A stretch of DNA of 64,000 nucleotides from Armatimonadota bacterium. Its GTDB lineage: Bacteria; Armatimonadota; Fimbriimonadia; Fimbriimonadales; Fimbriimonadaceae. The stretch lies in contig JAEURN010000009.1 in assembly GCA_016789105.1 (NCBI GenBank), positions 1-64,000 of the forward strand, given 5' to 3'. The notes under the pieces were generated by a model. That model searched no databases. It saw only the letters and a list, made by a program, of their open reading frames with translations, and had not been told where the DNA came from. The translations under genes were made by a program, and so were the position numbers. Of the stretch, positions 29,354-33,272 are shown piece by piece (the stretch's first letter is position 1; each line of letters opens with the position of its first letter).

Positions 29354-30097
29354 TTACTTCTTCCGCCTCTTCAGCAGGGGCAGCAAAACAATGCCCAAAG
29401 CGAAGGTCGCCGGCTCCGGAACCGTTTCAATCGTCCCGTTGAGTTCAAAAGCAAGGTTGGCTCCCGTGCTGTTGGTCCAGGTGCCCCAGCCCCCGCCCGC
29501 GCTGTTTTGGGACAGATAGTTGGAGATTCCGCTGCCCGTCCCGCTGAATGCCCAGGCAAAGGTGGCGTTGTTCGACCCGGAAACCCCGAAGTTGAGGTAG
29601 TAGTTGCCGCCAGTCCCCAATCCGATCGGTGCTCCGGAAAGGTCGAATGTGGTCTTGTAGAAGTTGAAGCCGGTATTGGCGCCGGTCCCAGCGGCCGCGA
29701 ATGCGGTGGAAACGGCACTGTCCCCCGCGCTGAAAGTCCGTGTAAAGAGCACGGTGTGGGTCGGGTTTCCGCCCCCGTCGGCCGCTAGGATGTTGATTTC
29801 GTAGGTTCCAATGGCCGAATTGGGGAGTTGGCTGAGCCCGAGCCCGTTCAAAGCGAATCCGGTTACCGATAGCGAGGTCAATTGGTAATCGTTGCTGGAA
29901 TCGATGGCGAGGTTAAAGTTGTCGGCCGCCGTGATGTGGCTGGGGCCGGCCCCGTTGGTCGAATAGCGATCAGAGACGGCAACGCCGTTGGCGGCCCCAA
30001 AATTGGGGGTTTGGTTGATGTTGAACGGCGACGAGGCATGCGCCAACGCGGCGATCCCGGCGGCAAAAACCGCCAAAAGGCATTTAAGGTTGTTCAA
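29354..30097 (-). CDS. PEP-CTERM sorting domain protein
   Basis: 247 aa. TTG start with a strong AAGGAG Shine-Dalgarno at 30105-30110. Signal peptide NLKCLLAVFAAGIAALAHAS is followed by a Ser/Thr/Asn/Gly-rich beta domain of about 190 residues. The C-terminus is the sorting signal VPEPATFALGIVLLPLLKRRKK: the PEP motif, a hydrophobic helix, then basic residues. Such proteins are cut by an exosortase and released or attached at the cell surface, often with extracellular polysaccharide. No exosortase gene is in this window. Function of the domain unknown. Confidence 0.85.
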   Translation of the reverse strand: MNNLKCLLAVFAAGIAALAHASSPFNINQTPNFGAANGVAVSDRYSTNGAGPSHITAADNFNLAIDSSNDYQLTSLSVTGFALNGLGLSQLPNSAIGTYEINILAADGGGNPTHTVLFTRTFSAGDSAVSTAFAAAGTGANTGFNFYKTTFDLSGAPIGLGTGGNYYLNFGVSGSNNATFAWAFSGTGSGISNYLSQNSAGGGWGTWTNSTGANLAFELNGTIETVPEPATFALGIVLLPLLKRRKK

Positions 30098-30241: not shown

Positions 30242-30276
30242 TTGACACAGGGGGAGGGGGGGGGGGGGGGTACATT
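30242..30276 (+). promoter_or_regulatory. promoter with a G15 tract between -35 and -10
   Basis: TTGACA (30242-30247) and GGTACATT (TACATT 30271-30276) are separated by a 23-bp spacer that contains an uninterrupted run of 15 G (30256-30270). The hexamer ends 6 nt before ATG 30283, the same geometry as the other leaderless starts. Loss of six G would give the ideal 17-bp spacer, so the tract could act as a phase-variation switch. Confidence 0.45.
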
Positions 30277-30282
30277 GTTGGA

Positions 30283-30798
30283 ATGATAATGGGATTTATT
30301 GGAGTTTGCCTTCAATTCGATCCAACGTGGGAATTGCAAACGAGGCCGATCTTGACGATCACGACGTTTGAGACTGTTGGCCCGACCACAATAAACAGTG
30401 GAGAAACTTCAATAAATGTTCCTGTTTCAACTCACAGCTGGCAAAAAGCAAAATCATGCGTTGAAACGAGTCAAGGCGGTTCAGGAAGTCCAGCTTGGAC
30501 AACACCAGTTGCCAACCTATATGATTCGACCGTGGGTCCGATTCTCGTTACTTGTGGCGGCGTATCACTGGCCCCAAATTTCGTCTATCATAAGGCGATG
30601 AAAGTGGATTGATATTGTCAATATGATGTTGTTCTAGTCAACGGGTATCCAACAGTTCAAAACTACGTGCAGCCGGCGGTCGAAACATGGCAAGAAAACG
30701 TTCCGATTGGCCCAAGCAGAACGAGAGTCCTAAGCAGTTTTGCTGGAACTGAGGCTGTCGACGTGTTTGACGAGTATGAGGGCCCTATCAGAAATTGA
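30283..30798 (+). pseudogene. AT-rich orphan gene interrupted by an in-frame TGA
   Basis: From ATG 30283 the frame runs 109 codons to TGA at 30610-30612. It then stays open for 61 more codons (TATTGTCAATAT onward) to TGA 30796-30798. The two parts look like one protein of about 171 residues: FIGVCLQFDPTWELQTRP at the start and NVPIGPSRTRVL near the end. No start codon suits a separate second gene. Base composition is far more AT-rich than in neighbours, suggesting acquired DNA. It could be a recent nonsense mutation, a sequencing error, or two real short genes. No family recognised. Confidence 0.45.
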
Positions 30799-31688: not shown

Positions 31689-33212
31689 TTATCTCCCTTT
31701 GAACAGTCCGCCCAAGATCCCCCGGAGGATGCTCCCGCTGTTCTTGCTCAGCTCGCGGCCGATTTGCGAGCCTGCCGAGCGCATGGCGGATTTCATCATG
31801 GCTTCGACCGGGGTGTCGCGGGTGGATCGGGCGCGCGAGGTGACGCGCTGCACTTTCTCCCTTTCTTTGGCCGCCTGGGCATCGGCTTTTGCCTGGGCTT
31901 CGGCCTGTTCGGCCCGTTCAGCTTCAAGGGCGGCTTGTTCAGCCCGTTTGCTCAGGACTTCGTAAGCCGATTCGCGGTCAACGACGTTTTCGTAAATGGC
32001 GCCGACGGGGGAATCGGCCATCACTTGCCTCCGCTCATCGGGAGTGGCCGGCCCAAGGCGGGATGATGGCGGCCGGATGAGTGTTTTTTGCACGACGATG
32101 GGGGTGCCTTTGCCTTCCAAGGTGCTGACGAGGGCTTCGCCGACGCCGAGTTGGGTGATGACCTCTTCCGTGCTGAAATCCGGGTTTTCGCGGAAGGTGG
32201 TGGCGGCCGCCTTGACGGCTTTTTGGTCGCGCGGGGTGAAGGCCCGCAAGGCATGCTGATACCGGTTGCCCAGTTGGCCGAGAACGGCATCGGGGATATC
32301 GAGCGGGTTTTGGGTGACGAAATAGACGCCGACGCCTTTGGACCGGATGAGCCGCACGACTTGCTCGACTTTGTCCACAAGGGGCTTGGGCGCATCCGAG
32401 AACAGCAGGTGGGCTTCGTCAAAGAAGAAAACTAACTTGGGTTGGTCGGGGTCGCCGACTTCTGGGAGTTCTTCGAACAATTCGCTCAGCAGCCAAAGCA
32501 AAAATGTCGCGTAGAGCTTGGGCGATTGCATGAGCTTGTCGGCGGCCAGGATGTTGATGTAGCCCAACCCATCCCGCGTTGTCCGCATGAGGTCTTTGAG
32601 ATCCAGGGCAGGTTCGCCGAAGAAGTTCTCTCCTCCCTGTTGCTCCAAAACAAGCAGGGCGCGTTGGATCGCGCCGACGCTGGCGCCGCTCACCTGCCCG
32701 TATTCGCTTTGAATGTCTTTGGCGTTTTGCGCGATGAAGTTGAGCATCCCCCTCAAGTCCTTGAGGTCGAGCATGAGGAGGTTCTGGTCGTCGGTGATTT
32801 TGAAGGCGATGTTGAGTACCCCTTCTTGGGTTTCGTTGAGTTCCAGCAACCGGGCAAGCAAAAGCGGCCCCATTTCGCTGATGGTCGTCCGGATGCGGTG
32901 GCCTTGTTCGGCAAAGAGATCCCAAAAAATGACAGGGCTTGCTTTGTAGCCATATGGCGAAAGCCCAATTTGTTGCGCCCGCTCTTCCAGTTTGGGGTTG
33001 CCGCCGCCAGCCTGGCACATCCCGCTCAAGTCACCCTTCACGTCGGCCATGAATACCGGTGTTCCCATCGCCGAAAACTGTTCAGCCAAGATTTGCAGGG
33101 TAACGGTTTTGCCGGTGCCCGTCGCCCCGGCAATTAGGCCGTGCCGGTTGCTGAGTTTGGGGAGCTGGTAGACGGGCTCGGTTGATTTGCCAACAAAGAT
33201 CGGTTCGGCCAT
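31689..33212 (-). CDS. HerA-like ATPase (DUF853 family)
   Basis: 507 aa. ATG 33212 ([11 protein letters not shown]) is chosen; a longer frame starts 57 bp upstream. Walker [11 protein letters not shown] (about residues 33-42) and Walker [13 protein letters not shown] (about 265-275) mark an FtsK/HerA-type P-loop ATPase of the DUF853 (Escherichia coli YjgR) group. [23 protein letters not shown] is the family's sensor region. A Glu/Ala/Gln-rich coiled coil (about 415-460) precedes a Gly-rich tail ([12 protein letters not shown]). The cellular role is unclear; DNA translocation is possible. It ends 3 bp after the orphan gene. Confidence 0.88.
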
Positions 33213-33272
33213 GACTGATAGGGATGATAACCCAACCGGGCCGGTTGACGGGGCAACCTCGGGAATCATGTT

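Follow-up and report, generated by a model that had tools for sequence, protein, structure and literature searches.

A candidate phase-variable poly-G promoter in front of a two-gene cassette of secreted-looking proteins in Fimbriimonadaceae

The DNA analyzed here is a stretch of 64,000 nucleotides (the window) from a genome of the family Fimbriimonadaceae. The locus under study consists of a promoter-like segment followed by two genes, A and B, and its features are listed in Table 1. Read 5' to 3', the segment is composed of TTGACA, CAGGGGGA, G15, TACATT, GTTGGA and ATG. That is, a homopolymer lies between recognizable -35 and -10 boxes, an arrangement expected of a phase-variable promoter of the spacer-length type. 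The original prediction had described this layout, with a 23-bp spacer and the ATG 6 nt behind the -10 box, and the description agreed exactly with the letters at 30242-30285. The spacer of this copy is outside the usual range of 15-20 bp. Its G15 is the one run of nine or more G in the window, and runs of at least 11 G or C numbered ten in the whole genome (2.75 Mb, 11 contigs).

Table 1. Features of the window locus, promoters of the same layout elsewhere in the genome, and spacer tracts of A genes found with the protein profile
Feature	Position	Strand	Spacer (bp)	Layout or remark
-35 box TTGACA	30242..30247	+		TTGACA or TTGACT likewise in 15 family promoters
Spacer, CAGGGGGA (30248-30255) + G15 (30256-30270)	30248..30270	+	23	proposed slippage tract; length varies between paralogues
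-10 box TACATT	30271..30276	+		abuts G tract, 6 nt before ATG; TANNNT 6-7 nt from ATG in family matches
Start codon ATG, gene A	30283-30285	+
Gene A, 172 codons read through	30283..30798	+		in-frame TGA at 30610-30612; A profile match; homologous to A of G006 (33%)
Gene B, 285 aa	30828..31685	+		intact; hydrophobic N-terminus
PEP-CTERM-like protein gene	29354..30097	-		outside cassette; weak PEP-CTERM match, E 0.31, below Pfam cut-off
HerA-like ATPase gene	31689..33269	-		convergent, outside cassette; PF05872, E 2e-233
Same genome	C2:213190		17	TTGACA-7-G10-TAGCTT-6-ATG
Same genome	C4:152958		16	TTGACT-7-G9-TAGCGT-7-ATG
Same genome	C4:154598		24	TTGACT-7-G17-TAGCGT-7-ATG
Same genome	C4:149990		21	TTGACT-10-G8-CGG-TAGCAT-6-ATG
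Same genome	C8:514900		17	TTGATT-8-G9-TAGCGT-6-ATG
Same genome	C8:197696			G15-TATTTT-6-ATG, without clear -35
A gene, profile match	L274		19	G9
A gene, profile match	L282		17	G9
A gene, profile match	L275		15	C8
A gene, profile match	L285		18	G6
A gene, profile match	L276		15	G8
A gene, profile match	L284		19	G11

The uninterrupted reading of the window A (30283-30612) gives 109 aa. Protein A generally has about 120-175 aa, a signal-peptide-like start and pairwise identities of 10-33%, and its invariant residues are a W soon after this start and the motif P-x-W. Protein B (285-400 aa) is encoded close behind A and begins with a hydrophobic stretch; signal peptides were called by eye and from hydropathy. 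The B proteins of C4_3 and G007 were related to each other (E 6e-24), as were those of C4_1 and C4_2 (E 3e-16). Since the window B matched the B of G006 weakly (E 0.02 in a set of 17 sequences), the common ancestry of all B proteins is drawn largely from their position. The GC content of the cassettes was 44-49% versus 59% for the window. Searches of A and B against Pfam, NCBIfam, PADLOC, PHROGs and PDB sequences gave nothing meaningful, and structure prediction reached a pLDDT of 33 for B from a single sequence and of 38 for A from three sequences. A and B are fast-diverging and, we think, probably secreted proteins; their sequences suggest that they are exported and act at the cell surface or outside it.

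Several expectations about this unit had to be revised. It had been called an orphan unit, but it is one among several two-gene cassettes. The link that had been drawn to the adjacent PEP-CTERM gene is probably incidental. The suggestion of a defence trait was also rejected, because A and B had no PADLOC match and a match to described defence families was absent. As a sign of target-site duplication, direct repeats of at least 7 bases were sought between the stretches upstream of and behind the cassette, and none was found. A DNA search with the cassette in 100 relatives returned no copy and only short HerA matches.

As shown in Table 1, the layout is repeated in this genome, where several cassettes are present; across the family their distribution is patchy. 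The tandem cassettes at C4:152958 and C4:154598 carry G9 and G17, respectively, a difference between paralogues and not between alleles of one locus, and the sequences flanking the tract, over about 60 bp on the upstream side and 45 bp on the downstream side, are at about 90% identity or more. The tract therefore changed much faster than its surroundings. The A gene of the C2 copy carries a frameshift and that of C8:197696 an early TAG; like the TGA of the window A, these defects may reflect decay, sequence errors or part of the variation itself. These defects, together with the in-frame TGA of the window A and a spacer beyond 15-20 bp, would fit the possibility that the tract class is real and the window copy is a relic, in which the cassette is decaying, the G run has drifted and the promoter is permanently silent. 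However, all 285 codons of B are intact, the two promoter boxes and their distance to the ATG are perfect, and the apparent stops could be sequence errors, so that we hold decay of this copy to be possible but somewhat doubtful.

The layout also recurs in other genera of the family. Among 101 genomes, the pattern GGGGGGGGGTANNNTN{5,8}ATG matched 16 times; the matches came from 8 genomes, each a member of this family, with six in the present genome, and the reversed control of GGGGGGGGGTANNNTN{5,8}ATG gave 0 matches in the 101 genomes. With the pattern TTGACN{6,30}GGGGGGTANNNTN{6,7}ATG, 15 matches were obtained in 9 of 85 family genomes; the controls in these 85 genomes gave 0 matches when the pattern was reversed and 2 when C6 stood in place of the G tract. 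The spacers of the 15 promoters were 17, 20, 22, 18, 18, 18, 15, 15, 18, 19, 17, 16, 24, 23 and 19 bp. That is, 12 of the 15 fell within 15-20 bp where 11-35 bp was allowed (p about 8e-6 versus a uniform spread). Identical loci were present in the named records CP075364 (Fimbriimonadaceae bacterium ACE_ARM1) and CP021424 (Armatimonadetes bacterium Uphvl-Ar2) and in two Chthonomonas sp. bins.

Within the family pattern matches, tracts as long as G15 and G17 were seen in this genome only. Poly-G or poly-C was also found in or near the C5 end, the C6 start, the C7 start and the C8 end (L039, L040, L041, L044), as G71, C67, C12 and G44. The lengths of these contig-end tracts look like sequencing artefacts, and the assembly looks as if it breaks at G tracts. 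With G71, C67 and G44 standing at contig ends or close to them, the G-run lengths of this assembly are not trustworthy to the base, and the assembled G15 may be inflated. It could be argued from the same tracts, and from the 8-12 G that mostly occur in other genomes, that the lengths 15 and 17 are artefacts of assembly or sequencing and that the true tract has about 8-11 G and may vary little. The G15 tract, however, is internal to a long contig, and tract lengths also differ in genomes assembled as a single contig (8 and 12 in G006; 6, 9, 9 and 10 in G014). The tract class is thus independent of this assembly, and we regard an artefact of this kind as rather unlikely.

A profile of protein A was run on the 85 genomes and matched in 12 of them. 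Six convincing A genes lay outside both the profile model and the DNA-pattern matches, and all six had a homopolymer in the spacer, with spacers of 15-19 bp (Table 1). The weaker profile matches L277, L278, L279 and L283 had no such tract, and their status as A genes is doubtful or they cover only part of one. The A gene of G007 has a tract-free promoter with a 17-bp spacer, resembling a locked promoter; this case, the 23-bp spacer and the stop in the window A count against a phase-variable promoter. The homopolymers at homologous positions bear on a further explanation, namely that the G run has a fixed length and works as a G-quadruplex or as a site for protein binding, without any length switch. 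On the non-template strand, G15 could in principle form a quadruplex beside the -10 box, but homologous promoters hold G6, G8 and in one case C8 at the same place, and the quantity that clusters is the total spacer length. We consider a fixed element very improbable.

From these comparisons we judge it probable that the window promoter is a phase-variable, leaderless-type sigma70 promoter driving the two-gene A/B cassette. The original proposal of such a promoter gained support from the same layout in paralogues and in other genera, from the clustering of spacers near 17 bp, from G17 versus G9 in near-identical paralogous promoters, and from the spacer homopolymers of the A genes found with the profile. 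The distance of 6-7 nt from the -10 box to the ATG would fit the leaderless type, in which a transcript begins at the ATG or next to it; TANNNT is located 6-7 nt before the start in 5 of the 51 window genes, which gives this reading weak general support.

The proposed switch would operate as follows. The poly-G run would be the adjustable part of the spacer from the -35 box (TTGACA) to the -10 box (TACATT), and slipped-strand mispairing would alter its number of G. With about 9 G the spacer would take the 17-bp optimum and the promoter would be ON, while the assembled 15 G would give 23 bp and an OFF or weak promoter; the reason for expecting this dependence is that the same logic applies to tp0126 and porA, described below, for which the mechanism is established. 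The assembled state of the window looks OFF. Since the promoter would drive A and then B, and several cassettes exist, cells could express different subsets of them. We infer both the slippage within a population and the effect of length on transcription.

The G-tract promoter also precedes other small secreted-looking proteins in the family (L067, L068, L069, L072, L073); the switch therefore seems wider than A. The same layout stands before a secreted-looking protein of 375 aa at L069 (G046) and before another short secreted-looking protein at L066 (G059). In this genome (G000), poly-C lies between TTGACA and TACAAT with a spacer of 13 at C8:95787 (L246) and upstream of TATACT-6-ATG at C6:159937 (L239) and C10:119730 (L256), in each case with a small secreted-looking gene, and G9 follows TTGACA ahead of a lipoprotein-like gene at C2:109625 (L223). 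Coding poly-C/G tracts (MAVTSRLAPALPLALVV..., MIKNSLLALVPAHLITPSTAVFAQS-GGGG) were found just past a signal-peptide-like start at C7:130878 (L058) and at the C7 start and C5 end (L057, L055). With the assembled C12, the start at C7:130878 does not share the frame of the long ORF that follows, as in translational phase variation. The tract of the C5 end and C7 start was considered as a further promoter and rejected, because it sits within a coding stretch.

A wider scan of contigs detected at least 117 G-tract promoter stretches in many phyla. Among 80 of these, the spacer was 15-20 bp in 79, where 15-24 bp was possible, indicating that poly-G in promoter spacers is widespread. What is special to this family is the link of the G tract to the A/B cassette, combined with the 6-7 nt from the -10 box to the ATG, a distance that was part of the search pattern and is by itself no evidence outside the family. 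In L097, L111, L115, L128 and L145, from Omnitrophota, Saccharibacteria, Nanosynbacter and another bacterium, such promoters are immediately followed by genes for type IV pilin-like proteins (GFTIVELLI...). In Planctomycetota (L099, L101, L103, L123, L131, L149, L164) they lie 6-7 nt before the ATG of signal-peptide-like proteins, some of which are clearly homologous (MWKLAAIV...) with tracts of G9 and G11.

We speculate, with about even chances, that Fimbriimonadaceae possess a phasome in which poly-G and poly-C promoter tracts, together with coding tracts past signal peptides, stochastically switch a new, fast-diversifying A/B secreted system and give surface variation, which might serve against phages or neighbours. 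Most work on poly-G spacer switches has concerned host-adapted bacteria. If the phasome is real, an environmental lineage would have surface variation of a sort known mainly from such bacteria, which opens the question of what selects for surface variation among free-living bacteria. The poly-G spacer design is tied here to a repeated, uncharacterized pair of genes, and the phylum concerned is environmental and little studied. The result is a set of specific candidate loci for such switches, with tract lengths that are readable from existing sequencing data. Our literature search found no paper joining Fimbriimonas and phase variation, and nothing relevant on leaderless genes or phase variation in Armatimonadetes.

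In Bordetella fim2 and fim3, which are genes of a surface structure, the promoter contains a poly-C homopolymer, and this tract sets the distance to the site of an activator (BvgA), not the bare spacer between -35 and -10. The original prediction had likened the window promoter to both Bordetella and Neisseria genes; the Neisseria likeness fits in the case of porA, whereas Bordetella fim is less close than porA and tp0126. In Helicobacter canadensis, poly-G tracts occur several times per genome, both in promoters and in coding sequence, and have length ranges at the read level, for example (G)11-17 (PMC2823697). The variation there was shown in reads, while the tracts described here are known from assembled sequence. 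In Neisseria meningitidis porA, poly-G lies between -10 and -35 with an optimal spacing of 17 (PMC7864442). The range of tract lengths and the type of gene differ from those found here. The porA gene encodes a porin and has a normal leader. In Treponema pallidum tp0126, which encodes an OmpW homologue, poly-G lies between -35 and -10 and transcription is best at 17-bp spacing (PMC7864442). The present promoters are like that of tp0126, the gene of an exported protein, in having poly-G in the -35/-10 spacer. Unlike in tp0126, the tract here runs right up to the -10 box, and only 6-7 nt separate this box from the ATG; moreover, tp0126 is a single gene of known fold in a host-restricted pathogen, whereas a repeated two-gene cassette of an environmental lineage is concerned here. 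The kind of switch is thus already known; to judge from our searches, the gene pair, the leaderless-type spacing and the occurrence in this lineage appear to be new.
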